Shown here in pieces: positions 3,545 through 64,000 of a stretch of DNA of 64,000 bases. Location of the stretch: contig PASF01000009.1 of NCBI GenBank assembly GCA_002711845.1, forward strand, positions 124,001 to 188,000. Direction: 5' to 3'. The position numbers were made by a program, and so were the translations under genes. The first letter of the stretch is position 1. The number at the start of each line of letters is the position of its first letter. Below the pieces are notes generated by a model, which was not told the origin of the DNA, made no database searches, and saw only the letters and a program-made list of their open reading frames with translations. The DNA is from Gammaproteobacteria bacterium (GTDB taxonomy: Bacteria; Pseudomonadota; Gammaproteobacteria; Pseudomonadales; Pseudohongiellaceae).

Positions 3545-6500
3545 TCAGGAACTAAAATCCGCCGACCCCGTGTCTCCAGCTGACCTGACGGAATTGTTCG
3601 CAGTACCCATCGGCTTTAGCGTTAGCCGGCACACTGCCGGCACCACCAGCAGCGTCTGCACCGTCGACGCCAACAACCCCGATATGATCGCCCACGCCAT
3701 CGGCGGCCATAACGTCGACGCCGAAAATGCCAGTGGTAGCAAGCCCGCCACAGTGGTTGCGGTGGTCAACAGAATTGGGCGAGTGCGCCGGCTTACCGCA
3801 TCACTGACTGCCTCATTAATGGAAACCCCGTCCCGCAACCGCTGATCAACCCGATCCAGCAATACGATGGCGTTGTTGACCACGATGCCGACCAGCGCGA
3901 TGATCCCCAGCAAAGGCTGAAAGCCGAACGGTGAGCCACTGAGAACCAGACCGGGAACGATCCCGGCGGCCGCCAACGGCACGGTCAGTAATATGATGCC
4001 GACGCGGGCAAAGGAGTTGAACTGCAGGATCAGAAAGAACAGCAGCAACAACAGTCCAATGGGCGCGGTATTGAGAATAGCCTGGTTGGCTTCGCCAGAC
4101 CCTTCCAGGTCACCACCCAGCTCCATGCGTGTGCCCGGGGGAAGTGGTTCAGTTTCAAGCCGGGCATTCAGCACCTCCAGAATCTGACTGAAGTTGTAAC
4201 CCGGCGCCAGGCCTGCGGTGATGGAATACACACGCACGCCATTTCTGTTCTGTATACCGGCCTCCTGCCAGTCCGCTGACACGCTGGCCACCAGGCTAAG
4301 CGGGATTGCCTCACCGTTATCGTTGTAGACATAGCTGGACAACAGTTGAGATATATCCAGCGCAGGTCCTTCCGGCGAGCGCAAGACAATCGGGATAGGG
4401 TCCAGTTCCTGCCGGTATTGCTCGGTATTGAATCCAAAGCTGCGGGCAAACAGGGTTTGTGCGACGTCAGCGCGACTGACACCGTGGCGCTGGGCACTGG
4501 CATCATCAACGATTGTCCGCAGTACGGGGGTCCCCAGGTCTATGTCGTGCCTGACGTCAACCGCGCCAGGTATCGTTTTTAACAGGCGGAATATGTGTTC
4601 GGCAGCCGCCAGTCGGGTATTGTTGTCTGCGTGATAGAGACGGACTTCAACCGGTGCGACCCGGGGCGGGCCCTGGGCCAGTGTACCGGCAACGATGTCG
4701 ATTTCCGGCAAGGTGGTTGCGGCATGCTCGCGTGCCCAACGGATAAAGGCGTCTGTGTCATCCAGGGCCTCCATGTTAACGACCAGTCGTGCGCGGTTGG
4801 GCGCCCGGGTGGCGTTAGGCAGGTTGTAGTAAAAACCCGGGCCGGTAAAACCGACAAAGCGATGCACCGACACGACATGATCCTGCGCCCGGGTCAGACG
4901 CTCAAAGTCTGCCGATACCTGGTCGGTGTAGGCCTGGTCGGTGCCCTCTGGCAGAAAGATCTCGATGACCACCTGCGGGCGATCGGCATTCGGGAAAAAC
5001 TGGACGTTTAGAAGGCTGCTGAGCAGCATGCTGGCAGTCACCAGGAGCAGGCCGGTGGCAATGATCAGGCGGGGCCAGGTCGCACTGAGGGACGCCAGCC
5101 ATGCACCCAGCCTGTCAAACCAGATACTGCGTCGGGCCTGTTGGGCGGGCAGAAACCAGGCAGCCAGCAACGGCGCCACGCTGATCGCCAGTAAATAGCT
5201 GATGCTGAGCGTCAGCATGATCATGACCGGAATGCCACGCGTGAAATCGGCGGTACCGCCACTGGAAAGCAACAACGGCGTGAAGGCGGCAAGCGTGGTG
5301 CCGGTTGAGGCACCCAGCGGCCCTGCCAGTTCCCTGACGCCCAGCAACATGGCGCGCTGGCGATTGTTGCCCTCGCTCAGGTGATTCTGGATGCTTTCGA
5401 TCATCACGATAGCATTGTCGATCAGGATACCCAGTGATATCACCAGGCCGATCACAGCGATCTGATGCAGCACCCCACCACCCAGATCATAGATGCCAAG
5501 ACTGATCAGCGTCACCAACGGCAGCATGGCCGCTACCAGAATGCCCATGCGCCATCCCATGCCCAGAAACACCACCAGAGTGATGATCAGCATGCTCAGT
5601 AGCAGGCTGCCCTGCAGGTCACTCAACCGGGATTCAACCTGGTCGGGCTGGAAAAACAGCTCTTTGATTTCCAGCGGTGTGAACGCGGGAGCAAGGTCAC
5701 TGACGCGCTGCCGCAGCGTTTCACCAAAGCCGATGGCATCGACCTGATTGTCCTGGATATAGATGTTCACGGTCACGACCCGTTCGCCGTTCATCCAGGT
5801 GGCCGGTTGCTCGGGTTGCAGCGACGTGCGGTTAACATCGGCGATACTTGCCAGTGGCACATAACCGCCTTCCGGCAGAGCAATCTGCGTACGTCGAATT
5901 GACGCCAGATCTTCGAATTCATTGTTGCTCAACAGACTGATGCGCTTATTGTCCACGACGATGAAGCCGCCCGGAGATACCTGGTTGCGCTGGCCGATCA
6001 GATTCGCCAGGTAGCCGGGGCTGATGCCCAGTCGGTTGAGCTCTGCGTCCTTGACGGCGATGGTGATCTGCTCATCAGCATCCCCTTCAATTTCGATGCG
6101 TGACAGGCCTGGCAGATCGGCCAGCTGGCGTTTTAGACGCTCAGCGGCCAGCGATAACGACACCACCGAGGGATCGCCAGAGATGGCCAGCACGACGGCC
6201 GGATTGGCGGTCATGCGGTCATCCAGTTCCATTTGCCTGACCCCCTCGGGAAATTCCAGTCGGGCTCGGTCCATGGCCTGGCGCACGCGTTCCCAGGCCG
6301 GTTCCGTGTCATAAAGGCTGTCCTGCAGACCAATGCTGACCAGTGCAACACCGCTGCGAGCAACGGCAGAATACTCCAGCACTTCTTCGACCTGCGAGAT
6401 TTCATCCTGCAGGGGCTCCAGAATCAGGCGCTCCAGTGCCTCGGCAGTAGCGCCTGGATAAAGTACGGTAATGAGACCATTACGCGCAGGGAATACCGGG

Positions 6501-59887: not shown

Positions 59888-60508
59888 ATGGAACATCAGA
59901 TGATGAACATGTTCGCGGTGCCCCTGTATCGCGCGTCGCTGGGCCGGGCATTTACGGACGAGGAGATGCAGTTTTTCAAGGCCGAGCTCAGCAATCCGGT
60001 CGCGGCCATTGCCAACTATGCCTCACCCAGCAAGAAGGTGCTTGATGCCGGCCCGATGCAAGCCATCCGGACGGCATTACAGGCCCATCTTGACGAGTTT
60101 TTCAGGATCACCTTTAATACGACCAATAAGGTCAGCCTGCAGATAACCCAGTCCTGGCTGACCCGGTCGCAGCAAGGTGACTCCCATCATACGCATACGC
60201 ATCCCAACAGCGTGGTCAGTGGCGTTTTATACATCAACCTGGCGCCCCGGGACGGTATCAATTTCTACCGTAATGAAGACAATCTCTGGTATGAGCTGAT
60301 CCGGGAGCAGGACAGCTACTACAATGCGACCCGGTATTTTGTGCAGACCAGTATCGGAGACATCATCCTGTTCCCCTCCCACATCCGTCATGGCGTCGGC
60401 GAAGTCACCGAAAATATTGACCGTGTCAGTCTGTCGTTCAATACTTTCTTTTCAGGTGAACTGGGCCGCGAAGAGTTCTCCAACCAGCTGAACATCCGCT
60501 TGGTGTAA
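59888..60508 (+). CDS. 2OG-Fe(II) oxygenase family protein, TIGR02466-like
   Basis: A 206-residue protein of the double-stranded beta-helix oxygenase group. A His-rich segment, SHHTHTHPNSVVSGVLYIN, carries iron ligands, and the second part has ILFPSHIRHGVGEVTENIDRVSLSFN, with the further His and an Arg for 2-oxoglutarate. Such proteins hydroxylate small molecules or residues, here unknown. The ATG at 59888 is used; a frame opening upstream overlaps argG. It starts about 44 bp past argG and may be co-transcribed. Confidence 0.8.
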   Translation: MEHQMMNMFAVPLYRASLGRAFTDEEMQFFKAELSNPVAAIANYASPSKKVLDAGPMQAIRTALQAHLDEFFRITFNTTNKVSLQITQSWLTRSQQGDSHHTHTHPNSVVSGVLYINLAPRDGINFYRNEDNLWYELIREQDSYYNATRYFVQTSIGDIILFPSHIRHGVGEVTENIDRVSLSFNTFFSGELGREEFSNQLNIRLV

Positions 60509-60543
60509 ACGCATTGCGGCATCATGCGCACCGGCCAGACTGG

Positions 60544-61494
60544 TCAGCGGGCAAGTTTGCCAAGACGCTCCCTGGTTTCCGGCGTTAATAAACCCACACT
60601 CTTCATGTTCAGTGTCAATTGACGAAACAGGTCGTGGCGTGGCTGCGGTTGCCTGATCCGGTTTTGCCGAAGGTGCATTCTCAGTGCCCGTGTGCACCAG
60701 CCGAATTCTTCCGCCACCCGGGTGTAGATATTCATGGCGCTGCTCAGTCGCACCACGTTTTCAACCACAAAACTGCTGCGTGCCTGCAACTCGCTGGCAC
60801 TGAGTGTGGCGAGATGCCGGCGCAACACATCGGTACCGAATTTGACATGCCGCGCCTCATCGGCACTGATGAAATCAATGGCATAGGCCAGCACCGGAAC
60901 CAGTGTGGCTCTGCGGATATCCTGCAGACGTGCCAGGGCAAGGCTTTCAATCAGAATCTGGCAGGCGATGAATTTATAGTCCCAGCGTGCATCATTGACC
61001 ATGGCCTTTATCAAATCCGCGACGGCATCACTTGGCGGATACACGGTACCAATGCTCTCGAGCAGGTAGCGCGAGAAAAACTCAACGTGCTGTGCTTCAT
61101 CAGCAACCTGAGAGCTGGCAAACAGTTTCGCTTCGACATCCGGCATGCATGACACCAATTGTGACGACACCAGCAGGGCGCCTTGCTCACCGTGGAGGAT
61201 GTCGCTGATCTCCAGCGCGTGACGATACCAGCTGCAGGCGATCTTTCGGGAGGCGGACAGTGACTCGAACGGCGCAAATCCTGCCAGCGGTTCAAACTGC
61301 AGCCGGCTGGGTGGCAGGCTTTTGTCAACCAGGGTTTCCCAGGGCGCCTCACTGGTTTTCCAGACCTTGTTTTTCGCCAATTCATAGAGGCTGTGGATAC
61401 GCGATTTCTCTTCCGTATACTGCCAGCGGATATGACCACGCAATCGTGTATCGATGGGCGTGATAGTTGCTGAAGCCTTGTTATTATCTGGCAT
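60544..61494 (-). CDS. Ferritin-like diiron protein, probable oxygenase
   Basis: A 316-residue helical protein with a full set of diiron ligands: E103 in HGEQGAL, E133 and H136 in DEAQHVEFF, E183 in ILIESLALA, and E213 and H216 in DEARHVKFG. This E / ExxH / E / ExxH pattern is that of soluble diiron oxygenases and desaturase-like enzymes, with no membrane helix. Helix spacing is closest to AurF/R2-like proteins, but a confident family name is not possible. An AAGGA site precedes the ATG. It is convergent with the 2OG oxygenase and divergent from the fatty acyl-AMP ligase, and a role in acyl modification is inferred. Confidence 0.75.
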   Translation of the reverse strand: MPDNNKASATITPIDTRLRGHIRWQYTEEKSRIHSLYELAKNKVWKTSEAPWETLVDKSLPPSRLQFEPLAGFAPFESLSASRKIACSWYRHALEISDILHGEQGALLVSSQLVSCMPDVEAKLFASSQVADEAQHVEFFSRYLLESIGTVYPPSDAVADLIKAMVNDARWDYKFIACQILIESLALARLQDIRRATLVPVLAYAIDFISADEARHVKFGTDVLRRHLATLSASELQARSSFVVENVVRLSSAMNIYTRVAEEFGWCTRALRMHLRQNRIRQPQPRHDLFRQLTLNMKSVGLLTPETRERLGKLAR

Positions 61495-61723
61495 GTCATC
61501 GTTCCTTGATGAGGTTTGTGGTGCTGTCGTTCCGGGCGGGCTGTTGCCTCGAGCGTGTCCGGTTTACCCGGAGTGTATAGACCAGATGCAGCAACAATAC
61601 GTGTCCCTTTTATCGTTCTTTGTCGACCTGTTTGCCACGCTGTGCGGTGGGTCACAGTTTGGCCCGGGAATGAGTTATCCGGCCAGCCGAACCAATCCGC
61701 AACAGCTAAAGTGATGTTGAGTC

Positions 61724-61751
61724 TTGTCAAAAAAGCATCATCAAATATACG
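61724..61751 (+). promoter_or_regulatory. Possible promoter close to the FAAL start
   Basis: TTGTCA (61724-61729) and TATACG (61746-61751) have 16-bp spacing. The ATG at 61761 is only ten bases after the -10, so the message would be nearly leaderless; no ribosome site is visible before this ATG, consistent with that. The rest of the 266-bp divergent gap shows no gene. Confidence 0.3.
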
Positions 61752-61760
61752 GGTAATGCC

Positions 61761-63416
61761 ATGGACGGTACGTTACTTGATCTACTGGAACGGAAAGCGG
61801 CAGAGTATGGCGACCAAGCGCTATATTCATTTCTTGACCGGCGCCTGTCCGTCAGCCAGTCGCTCAGCTATGAATCACTTTATCTGCGTAGCCGGAGGTT
61901 TGCCGGGGTATTGCAGCATGAGCACTGTTATGGTCAACCGGTGCTGCTTTATTGTCCGCATGGTCCGGGATTTCTGGTTGCGTTTTTTGCCTGTGTCATG
62001 GCAGGGGCATGGCCAGTGCCGGTCACCCGACAGCGGGTGCAATCTGTCGCCAGCCTGTCTTCGTTGCTGCAGGCAAGCGGTGCGGCAACGGTCGTTACCT
62101 CTGACTCGCGGCGCACTCATCTGCCACCGTCACTGCTGCAAACAGGATTGCGTGTGTTGTCTGTGGATACACCGGATGAACACGGCCGCGCCTACCAGCG
62201 CCCTGCACTGGCAGCCGAGGACACAGCGTTTATCCAGTATACGTCCGGGTCTACGTCATCGCCCAAAGGCGTGGTGATCAGTCATGGCAATGTCTTGCAC
62301 AATGCCAGAGCCATTGCCCGCGCGTTCTCCTGCCGCCGCGATGATATTGGCGTGTCATGGTTGCCGTTTCATCATGACATGGGGCTGATCGGGCACGTCA
62401 TCGAACCATTGTATGCAGGCCTGCATAACTACTTCCTGAACCCGGTAGATTTTGTAGCGAGGCCGGTGCGTTGGCTACAGGCGATAGCGAAAGTGGGTGG
62501 TACCCTGAGTGGCGGTCCGGATTTCGCATTTGCGCTGGTGACACAAAAAACACCCGACACGCAGCAGCGCGAGCTGTCACTGGACACCTGGCGCCTCGCC
62601 TATTGCGGCGCTGAGAAAATCAGGCCGCAGACCCTGTCCAGTTTTGTTGATCGTTTCTCGCCTTGCGGATTTCGCAAGTCATCCGTGTTCCCCTGCTATG
62701 GTCTCGCAGAGGCCACGCTGTTTGTCAGCGGCCAGCACGGCGTCGCAACGCATGTGCCAGTCGAACCCGGGAGAGCCATGCCCGCGGTATGTCTTGGCAG
62801 GCCTGCAGCGGACACGACAGTACGGATTATCAATCCCGATACCGGTTGCCAGGTTACCGAGGGTGGAAGTGGTGAAGTCTGTATTTCGTCGCCTTCCGTT
62901 GCCAGCGGCTATTACCGTAACCTGGTGGCCAGCAACAATGTCTTTGGGCCGCTCGTTGAGGACAGACGGCACTATTGCCGTACCGGCGATCGGGGGTTTC
63001 TCCGCGAGCAGCGTCTGTATCTGCTGGGGCGTTTCAAAAATGTTATCAAACGGTATGGCTGCAGCTTTCATGCCGAAGACCTGGAGGCCACATTGAAGCG
63101 GGGCCTGGGCGCGCAGAACATAAGTCGCTGCGCCGCTTTCACGACGGGTGACCCGAGCGCCGACAAACTGGTCGTGTTGCTTGAGCGCGACCGCGACCAC
63201 AGGAAGGTGATGATCGCCGCGGACGGGCATCTGATTGAAAGGGCCGGGGCACTGGTGAGTGATGAGTTCGGGCTGGTCGTTGATGATGTCCGCATCATGC
63301 CCGCCAACTCCCTGCCGCTGACCAGCAGTGGCAAGATTCGCCGTGATGCATGCCCTGATTTGTATCAGCAACAGATCATTCAAGAGACGAGGATTGGCAA
63401 TGCAAGGCAGTCATGA
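61761..63416 (+). CDS. Fatty acyl-AMP ligase (FAAL)
   Basis: A 551-residue member of the acyl-adenylate family. It makes an acyl-AMP and hands the acyl group to a carrier protein rather than to CoA. The P-loop YTSGSTSSPKG is at 160-170, WLPFHHDMGLIGHVIEPLYAG is FAAL-like, and YCGAEKIRPQTLSSF and GRFKNVIKRYGCSFHAEDLEATL follow the FAAL pattern. The final Lys-containing GKIRRD is present. The ACP gene overlaps its end, a strong hint that this carrier is the acceptor. Chain length and final product are unknown. A divergent diiron protein is upstream. Confidence 0.9.
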   Translation: MDGTLLDLLERKAAEYGDQALYSFLDRRLSVSQSLSYESLYLRSRRFAGVLQHEHCYGQPVLLYCPHGPGFLVAFFACVMAGAWPVPVTRQRVQSVASLSSLLQASGAATVVTSDSRRTHLPPSLLQTGLRVLSVDTPDEHGRAYQRPALAAEDTAFIQYTSGSTSSPKGVVISHGNVLHNARAIARAFSCRRDDIGVSWLPFHHDMGLIGHVIEPLYAGLHNYFLNPVDFVARPVRWLQAIAKVGGTLSGGPDFAFALVTQKTPDTQQRELSLDTWRLAYCGAEKIRPQTLSSFVDRFSPCGFRKSSVFPCYGLAEATLFVSGQHGVATHVPVEPGRAMPAVCLGRPAADTTVRIINPDTGCQVTEGGSGEVCISSPSVASGYYRNLVASNNVFGPLVEDRRHYCRTGDRGFLREQRLYLLGRFKNVIKRYGCSFHAEDLEATLKRGLGAQNISRCAAFTTGDPSADKLVVLLERDRDHRKVMIAADGHLIERAGALVSDEFGLVVDDVRIMPANSLPLTSSGKIRRDACPDLYQQQIIQETRIGNARQS

Positions 63417-63699
63417 CCAGGTATGGCGACAGGTATCACAGGAAATAGCAAGGGCCCAGGGCTACGCTGCTGCGGAGGCTTTGCAGCCGGAGCACACACC
63501 GTTGTCAGCGCTCGGGCTGGACTCGCTCAAACTGATAGAGATTGTGTACGAGCTGGAGACGTTCTACCAGCTTGACGTCGACGAGGAGCGCCTGGCAGAA
63601 CTCAACAGGGTTGGGGATCTGATAGATCTCATTGTCACTGCCCTGGCTGTAACCGATGATCCGTCACCCGCCGGAGGCACGCATGGCACACATCTTTGA
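63400..63699 (+). CDS. Acyl carrier protein
   Basis: A 99-residue discrete carrier. The phosphopantetheine attachment Ser is S42 in ALGLDSLKLIEIVYELE, and the flanking helices fit an ACP. GAGG lies seven bases before the ATG. It overlaps the end of the FAAL gene by 17 bases and the next gene by 17, so the three are one operon. Not the fatty acid synthase AcpP, which is more acidic and shorter. Confidence 0.92.
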   Translation: MQGSHDQVWRQVSQEIARAQGYAAAEALQPEHTPLSALGLDSLKLIEIVYELETFYQLDVDEERLAELNRVGDLIDLIVTALAVTDDPSPAGGTHGTHL

Positions 63700-64000
63700 C
63701 ACATTGGCCACTAACAGTCAGTGCCAGTCCGAGCGCGCGGGTGCCCGCGACAGCATTGATGCTGATTTGCACTCGCTATGCTCAAGATTTCAAAAGGTAA
63801 TTGCCTCGCGTAGTGAGGCGGTTATCAGCGAAGCCTTGAGGGCATTGCCGATACCGGTCAAGGGCCTGGGGATTGTGCGCTCGGAGTTCGGTGTGACGTT
63901 GCGTCTCAGCAGGATTGATGTCAGTCGTGAGCAATGCAAATGGCTCTTCGATTACATCAACATTCTTGAGGACAGCCTGCCAGCCCCGTCGCTGCCAGAA
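63683..64000 (+). CDS. Unknown protein following the ACP, cut by the window end
   Basis: The ATG at 63683 has GGAGG six bases before it and overlaps the ACP stop. The frame is open to the window end, giving 106 residues that begin MAHIFDTLATN and continue through a helical region and EFGVTLRLSRIDVS. I do not recognise it. No signal peptide or membrane segment is seen. As the third gene of the FAAL-ACP operon it is probably part of the same pathway. Confidence 0.7.
   Translation, partial: MAHIFDTLATNSQCQSERAGARDSIDADLHSLCSRFQKVIASRSEAVISEALRALPIPVKGLGIVRSEFGVTLRLSRIDVSREQCKWLFDYINILEDSLPAPSLPE

Follow-up and report, generated by a model that had tools for sequence, protein, structure and literature searches.

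Closest described systems

Terminal alkyne formation of the JamABC type uses a membrane desaturase. In jamaicamide biosynthesis, the fatty acyl-AMP ligase (FAAL) JamA and the acyl carrier protein (ACP) JamB operate with a desaturase, and this system, together with stand-alone FAAL/ACP pairs, follows a logic shared by the locus described here, in which a FAAL loads a private ACP and an O2-activating enzyme lies close by, as presented in the available sections of a FAAL review (PMC11837247). In the context of ribosomal peptides, the class IIb (siderophore) microcins carry double-glycine (GG) leaders, depend on a C39 ABC exporter plus a membrane fusion protein, may employ a single exporter and a single set of modification functions for several peptides, and have a C-terminal serine to which a siderophore derivative is attached, according to the accessible part of one account (PMC10233263). 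Fatty-acylated ribosomal peptides are represented by the lipolanthines/goadvionins and by the selidamides, in which a GNAT enzyme acts on (hydroxy)ornithine or lysine, and the lipidation of ribosomal peptides was still considered very rare in the accessible text of a 2022 review (PMC9505594). No FAAL/ACP-fed peptide lipidation was found in the titles and abstract openings of the literature on bacteriocins/RiPPs, on microcins and acyltransferases and on Pseudohongiella bacteriocins, a body of text from which subscription journals are mostly absent, nor was a FAAL/ACP-fed route to ribosomal peptides found in the available sections of the FAAL review (PMC11837247).

The locus analyzed here suggests that some Pseudohongiella-like bacteria attach a fatty acid to small bacteriocin-like peptides prior to secretion, possibly at the C-terminal serine. 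We lean towards reading it as a lipidation-and-export cassette for GG-leader class II bacteriocin- or microcin-type peptides. By its logic, the class IIb microcins would be the closest described relatives, sharing with it the GG-leader peptides, the C39 ABC exporter with its membrane fusion protein, the sharing of these functions by several peptides and, as proposed for the cassette, the C-terminal serine as the modified residue. In contrast to those microcins, the cassette carries FAAL, ACP, diiron and PatA-like acyltransferase genes and not siderophore linkage genes, its precursors are often unlinked, and its source genome has no detected NRPS condensation domain. The fatty-acylated ribosomal product proposed for the cassette would resemble selidamides, lipolanthines and goadvionins, but the candidate enzyme is a PatA/LpxL-like transferase, unlike the GNAT of the selidamides, and most of the peptides of acyltransferase-bearing genomes contain no lysine. 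Compared with JamABC, the oxidant would be a soluble R2-like diiron protein, and its product would be handed to an acyltransferase and an exporter, not to a synthase.

Gene organization in and beyond the window

The window, i.e., the whole analyzed stretch of 64,000 nucleotides (G000:C9:124001-188000), belongs to a source genome of 3.59 Mb that is 99.98% complete. The FAAL, ACP, diiron and 2OG-Fe(II) oxygenase genes called near its end by the earlier note were all upheld by profile matches. The 2OG-Fe(II) oxygenase (2OG-FeII_Oxy_5; 59888..60508, + strand; PF13759, E 3.8e-20) is a neighbor judged to lie outside the cassette. It is followed by the diiron oxygenase, a candidate acyl-chain oxidase of R2lox/AurF-like fold (60544..61494, − strand; PF11583, E 2.3e-9, 37.3 bits against a cut-off of 29.6), which is divergent from the FAAL gene (61761..63416, + strand; PF00501, E 6.6e-65). 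The best NCBIfam matches of the FAAL were FAAL models or a synthase model starting with a FAAL domain, all of them under the curated cut-offs. The discrete ACP (63400..63699, + strand; PF00550, E 7.9e-9) has its ATG inside the FAAL gene, and the ATG of the following PatA/LpxL-like acyltransferase (63683..64000 in the window, on to G000:C9:188915, + strand; PF03279, E 1.1e-8) precedes the ACP end at 63699, so that both overlaps noticed earlier exist and each comprises 17 bases.

The cassette continues beyond the window, and its 3′ part was read from the adjoining contig sequence (L009), giving the order argG, 2OG oxygenase (+), diiron gene (−), FAAL (+), ACP (+), PF03279 acyltransferase (+), HlyD (+), C39-peptidase ABC exporter (+), GNAT and GST. 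This extension past 64 kb, which the earlier note had proposed, thus added a 410-residue PF03279/PatA-like acyltransferase, a protein with HlyD domains (about 188917-190185, + strand) and an ABC exporter with a C39 peptidase domain (190182-192290, + strand; PF03412, E 2.6e-33). The acyltransferase and HlyD genes nearly touch, and HlyD and ABC overlap by 4 bases. Because of these overlaps and near-contacts, the five genes from FAAL to ABC resemble a single operon, from which the diiron gene diverges.

A polyketide or peptide synthase downstream, which the earlier note had named as a sufficient explanation for the FAAL-ACP pair, was not found; an acyltransferase and an exporter occupy that place in 18 of 18 loci of the family survey described below. 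Moreover, a search for NRPS condensation domains, positive in an E. coli control, gave no match in the source genome, and the longest AMP-binding reading frame of this genome measured 706 codons. The JamABC-type tailoring logic therefore survived in part: FAAL, discrete ACP and soluble diiron protein do occur together, but they are followed by an acyltransferase and a peptide exporter, with neither a PKS/NRPS nor a membrane desaturase. Acyl-ACP tailoring of that type feeding a polyketide or peptide synthase, for which FAAL, ACP and an oxygen-activating enzyme are all present as in jamaicamide biosynthesis, is exceedingly improbable in view of the conserved acyltransferase and exporter and of the condensation domain search. 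Since the rest of the unit consists of an acyltransferase and a peptide-processing exporter, its endpoint would probably be an acylated secreted peptide and not a JamABC-like starter unit.

Conservation across the family and the class

In a survey of 137 genomes of the family, diiron genes were counted at E <= 1e-15 and the neighborhoods of all 21 positives were read. The diiron gene adjoined the FAAL gene in 21 of 21, and all six genes (diiron, FAAL, ACP, acyltransferase, HlyD and C39 ABC) were side by side in 18 of these 21 genomes, a complete locus being defined by a profile or sequence match for each gene and not as proof that each is intact. Such a contiguous set, recurring in 18 genomes, excludes a chance grouping; the earlier proposal that FAAL, ACP and soluble diiron protein belong together was thus supported by the search for this neighborhood in other genomes. 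The diiron match of G046, counted as a complete locus, contains one stop, as do the acyltransferase matches of G020 and G024, and the diiron gene of LSUCC0112 seems to be interrupted close to its 3′ end, giving two frames (L036:9923-10926). Of the three incomplete loci, those of G028 and G019 were cut by contig ends and that of G021 has transposase-like frames; in G019 (L050), diiron and FAAL genes lie on the same strand. The G021 cassette ends after the ACP near these frames (L049:17-757 and 815-2470, by eye, in the region L049:1-3600), and this genome has no C39 match, yet retains a GG peptide ending in serine (L156).

The 2OG oxygenase, which the earlier note had included as a partner of FAAL and ACP, did not hold its place. 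At E <= 1e-10 it was present in 54 of 137 family genomes, cassette-less ones included; G029, G031, G032, G035, G044 and G045, which lack the diiron or acyltransferase gene, encode it with 61-67% identity. It stands beside the cassette, at argG, only in the four nearest genomes, and in four other surroundings that were checked (L247-L250) neither argG nor the cassette adjoined it. Its adjacency in only 4 of 18 loci, together with its presence where the cassette is missing, led to its rejection as a member. Similarly, the GNAT and GST genes 3′ of the exporter were dropped, the GNAT gene following the exporter in just 4 of 18 loci and both genes being there only in the same four nearest genomes.

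In a sister genus, 37 genomes matched the acyltransferase profile, and the acyltransferase, ACP, HlyD and C39 ABC genes were found together with no FAAL or diiron gene beside them in 6 of 6 loci read. Since this core stands there without them beside it, FAAL and diiron protein would be accessories to a nucleus of acyltransferase, ACP and exporter, which would agree with a role in determining which acyl group is attached; the retention of acyltransferase, ACP, HlyD and C39 ABC in the sister genus likewise points to an acyl transfer tied to export.

Outside the family, no match to the acyltransferase profile was found in 368 other genomes of the class, with at most four candidates scored per genome, and diiron homologues occurred in 7 of 369 class genomes besides the source genome. 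In the 11 such loci that were read there was no cassette, only weak generic profile matches to FAAL (L095) and ABC (L101), and the neighbors were ordinary where examined (L093, L096 and L097), so these homologues give no hint of a substrate. Diiron relatives of 35-40% identity, longer than the cassette protein, stand alone in several other gammaproteobacterial families (L093, L096, L097, L098, L099, L100 and L102); for example, that of L096 has pyrG-like and dnaB-like neighbors, named by eye, and no cassette.

The diiron protein

The set of ligands pointed out in the earlier note (E103, E133xxH136, E183 and E213xxH216) is present, and all six are invariant in the 21 aligned cassette proteins. 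The AlphaFold model (pLDDT 86) found its best PDB folds in R2lox, followed by CmlI, the ribonucleotide reductase R2 and AurF, and this R2-like fold supports the earlier expectation that the oxidant would be soluble. The N-oxygenase AurF has an additional His ligand, located four positions N-terminal to the final ExxH; in the cassette proteins that place is taken by Ile209, in 21 of 21. With R2lox, the cassette protein shares the fold and the six-ligand E, ExxH, E, ExxH set. R2lox forms a Val-Tyr ether cross-link between V72 and Y162, as given in the accessible part of one report (PMC6060897), but the cassette proteins carry Ala106 and Cys178 at the equivalent offsets in 21 of 21, and the score lies far under the NCBIfam cut-offs. 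By the residues tested, the protein is thus neither a canonical R2lox nor an AurF.

R2lox has been reported to bind a fatty acid (PMC6060897; PMC6399176) and one of its homologues has been reported as an alkane monooxygenase (PMC10867098), as far as the available portions of these papers state, which together make an acyl substrate plausible for the cassette protein. Oxidation of the acyl chain would be its corresponding reaction.

Acyltransferase, carrier protein and exporter

Members of the PatA/LpxL acyltransferase superfamily are characterized by an HX4D/E motif, and the relatives of the cassette acyltransferase perform O-acyl chemistry. The 410-residue enzyme scored 35.1 bits with PF03279 against a cut-off of 22.3, and PatA was its best PDB match both by sequence and by fold (Foldseek E 4.4e-11); the predicted structure (pLDDT 84) was closest to PatA, then to LpxM. 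The fold over about 250 aligned columns and the conserved His (19 of 19) are shared with these enzymes. In contrast to them, the acid of the HX4D/E motif is not conserved, position H+5 being V/F/L/R/T, and roughly 160 of the approximately 410 residues extend beyond the aligned part. Position H+3 is Asp in 16 of 19, and the forms of the sister genus are shorter than the cassette form.

The carrier serine of the ACP was present in 20 of 20 aligned sequences. All 18 exporters have the C39 Gln/Cys/His/Asp residues unchanged; cleavage of a leader would thus be expected from sequence, and the C39 domain leads to the expectation of GG-leader substrates. The source genome yielded a single PF03412 match, which is the cassette's own C39 domain.

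Double-glycine-leader peptides

Candidate peptides were taken from 148 leader-profile matches and from a scan of the loci that had been read, and rows that failed the criteria were dropped. These criteria were a leader profile of at least 10 bits, G[GAS] next to it, a start codon within 60 codons upstream and a stop-closed frame of 25-270 codons, with duplicates within a genome merged; in GGG leaders the cleavage position is possibly off by one residue. This gave 142 GG-leader peptides from 79 of the 137 family genomes. Three related entries (L143, L144 and L112) belong to a peptide family whose Ser/Gly-rich tail terminates in ...SRYPIE(D/N)CxxCS, slightly like the tails of siderophore microcins.

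GG-leader peptide genes with ribosome-binding-site-like sequences adjoin the cassette in 6 of 18 loci (L033, L036, L042, L044, L045 and L046), and in the other 12 no adjacent GG peptide was found. The peptides directly after the exporter in L033, L036 and L046, in tandem pairs in the last two, end in serine in 5 of 5 cases, and those next to the diiron gene in L042, L044 and L045 end in R, H and H. The tandem peptides at L046:2542-2872 and L036:2700-3036 differ from each other within each pair, as in two-peptide bacteriocins.

In the source genome, no precursor was found in the window or beside its cassette with a looser pattern and a ribosome-binding-site filter, nor among the small ORFs after the exporter and diiron genes, and no cassette-adjacent peptide was found in the clade of this genome. 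A window match at 5984 (+ strand), produced by the first pattern, was dropped as not precursor-like. The profile search located four scattered GG peptides (C1:521683, C1:318634, C1:302571, which is the weakest, and C11:286151), 4 of 4 ending in serine, and their processing would by exclusion fall to the cassette exporter, since no C39 domain other than its own was found in the genome. Of 6 peptides tested, 3 scored above the NCBIfam cut-off of TIGR03949, which comprises Gram-positive-type class IIb bacteriocins, namely two of three from the source genome and one of L046.

Class IIb microcins, whose C-terminal serine is linked to a siderophore derivative, likewise rely on GG leaders and on export through a C39 ABC transporter with its membrane fusion protein (PMC10233263, accessible part), which raises the question of whether the terminal serine here bears a siderophore-like group, the FAAL activating the acid for it. 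We consider this very improbable: the condensation domain search and AMP-binding frames of at most 706 codons mean that no enterobactin-type synthetase was seen, and the long Ser/Gly-rich tail is absent, by eye, from most listed peptides.

Regarding the acceptor group of the proposed lipidation, 76 of the 106 peptides of acyltransferase-bearing genomes have no lysine, and lysine acylation is consequently disfavored. The O-acyl relatives of the acyltransferase, the scarcity of lysine and the enrichment of terminal serine described below together argue for a hydroxyl acceptor.

Terminal serine and the acyltransferase

The terminal-serine pattern was first noticed by eye, and the first set contains the peptides that suggested it. 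In this set, serine was the last residue of 64/82 peptides in acyltransferase-plus genomes (a list of 59 genomes that includes two weak ones, G059 and G060) against 5/24 in the rest; at positions −2 to −12 of the first 82 peptides its frequency was 2-20%. A prediction written before the held-out set placed the share of serine at 60% or more for acyltransferase-plus genomes and at 30% or less for acyltransferase-minus genomes. It failed, with 14 of 24 (58%), just under the threshold, and 7 of 12, respectively. All seven Ser-ending minus peptides came from genomes without a detected C39 exporter, an account made after the fact; five of them (G072, G115, G124, G125 and G132) resemble, by eye, Ser-ending peptides of acyltransferase-plus congeners, and the two of G079 do so less clearly.

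With both sets pooled, 78/106 peptides end in serine in acyltransferase-plus genomes and 1/15 where a C39 exporter occurs without this acyltransferase, the latter becoming 2/19 if G029 is counted, whose weak C39 match is not in an ABC-sized frame. Among the orphans, i.e., peptides of acyltransferase-minus genomes with no C39 exporter detected, 11 of 21 end in serine. Divided by strong C39 matches, acyltransferase-plus genomes gave 54/66 with one match, 22/38 with several and 2/2 with none seen. After clustering at 50% identity the contrast was 42/64 versus 7/22 (Fisher p 0.011, with relatedness uncontrolled). An association between terminal serine and the acyltransferase is therefore clear among exporter-bearing genomes, confounded by kinship. 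In G096, three tandem GG peptide genes (L133:4432-4987) lie near a second HlyD/C39 exporter pair that has no acyltransferase beside it, and none is Ser-ending, the last residues being W, L and R.

These numbers bear on two further explanations. In the first, the peptides would be acylated elsewhere, at the N-terminus or at an internal Ser/Thr, and the terminal serine would be a recognition or export feature of the transporter, or a mark of shared ancestry. Because acyltransferase and exporter co-occur, the correlation cannot separate the two, and the clustered contrast reaches just p 0.011 with about half of the orphan peptides ending in serine. Nevertheless, terminal serine is common to dissimilar mature sequences, and related peptides without the acyltransferase end in ...WWDPAGYYD (G001) and ...WWDPAGYYSSGC (G009), whereas their counterparts in acyltransferase-bearing genomes end in ...WWDPAGYYNRS and ...SRS (G037 and G038), so that we hold acylation at another site to be quite improbable.

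In the second, FAAL, ACP, diiron protein and acyltransferase would serve to produce an acylated small molecule or a membrane lipid distinct from the peptides, e.g., for self-protection, the exporter would handle unmodified bacteriocins, and the genes would be co-inherited for reasons of regulation or function. The resemblance of the acyltransferase to the glycolipid-acylating enzymes PatA and LpxM agrees with such a product, as do the indirect assignment of the peptides as acceptors and the failure of the held-out serine prediction; it is opposed by the six sister-genus loci that keep acyltransferase, ACP, HlyD and ABC together with no FAAL or diiron gene beside them, and by terminal serine going with the acyltransferase among C39-exporter genomes. 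We regard a separate lipid as unlikely.

Proposed pathway and significance

What the DNA and its predicted translations show directly is the conserved gene set with its catalytic residues, the peptides, and one C39 domain as the sole match of the source genome. On this basis, a lipidation-and-export cassette might work as follows. The FAAL would activate a free fatty acid and load it onto the private ACP, and the soluble R2lox-like diiron protein would oxidize the acyl chain, either before loading or once it is bound to the ACP. Transfer of the acyl group from the ACP to a hydroxyl of the peptide, most simply that of the C-terminal serine, would then fall to the PatA/LpxL-like acyltransferase. 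The leader would subsequently be cut after GG by the C39 domain of the exporter, and the peptide would exit through ABC, HlyD and an outer-membrane channel. We infer this order of steps, as well as the peptides as acceptors, the serine, the nature of the acyl chain, the diiron reaction and any antibacterial role of the products. The most specific version, in which a FAAL/ACP-supplied acyl group oxidized by an R2lox-like enzyme is attached by a PatA-like transferase to the C-terminal serine as an O-ester, with one cassette serving many scattered precursors and the products forming a new class of lipidated ribosomal peptides, is put forward tentatively and is, taken as a whole, doubtful.

If it were true, these bacteria would possess a further route for fatty acid attachment to ribosomal peptides, and an R2lox-like protein would have a physiological acyl substrate. 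Moreover, the acyltransferase would perhaps be a portable enzyme for C-terminal acylation, and the terminal serine would mark the substrates of the cassette, a simple claim that is open to experiment.
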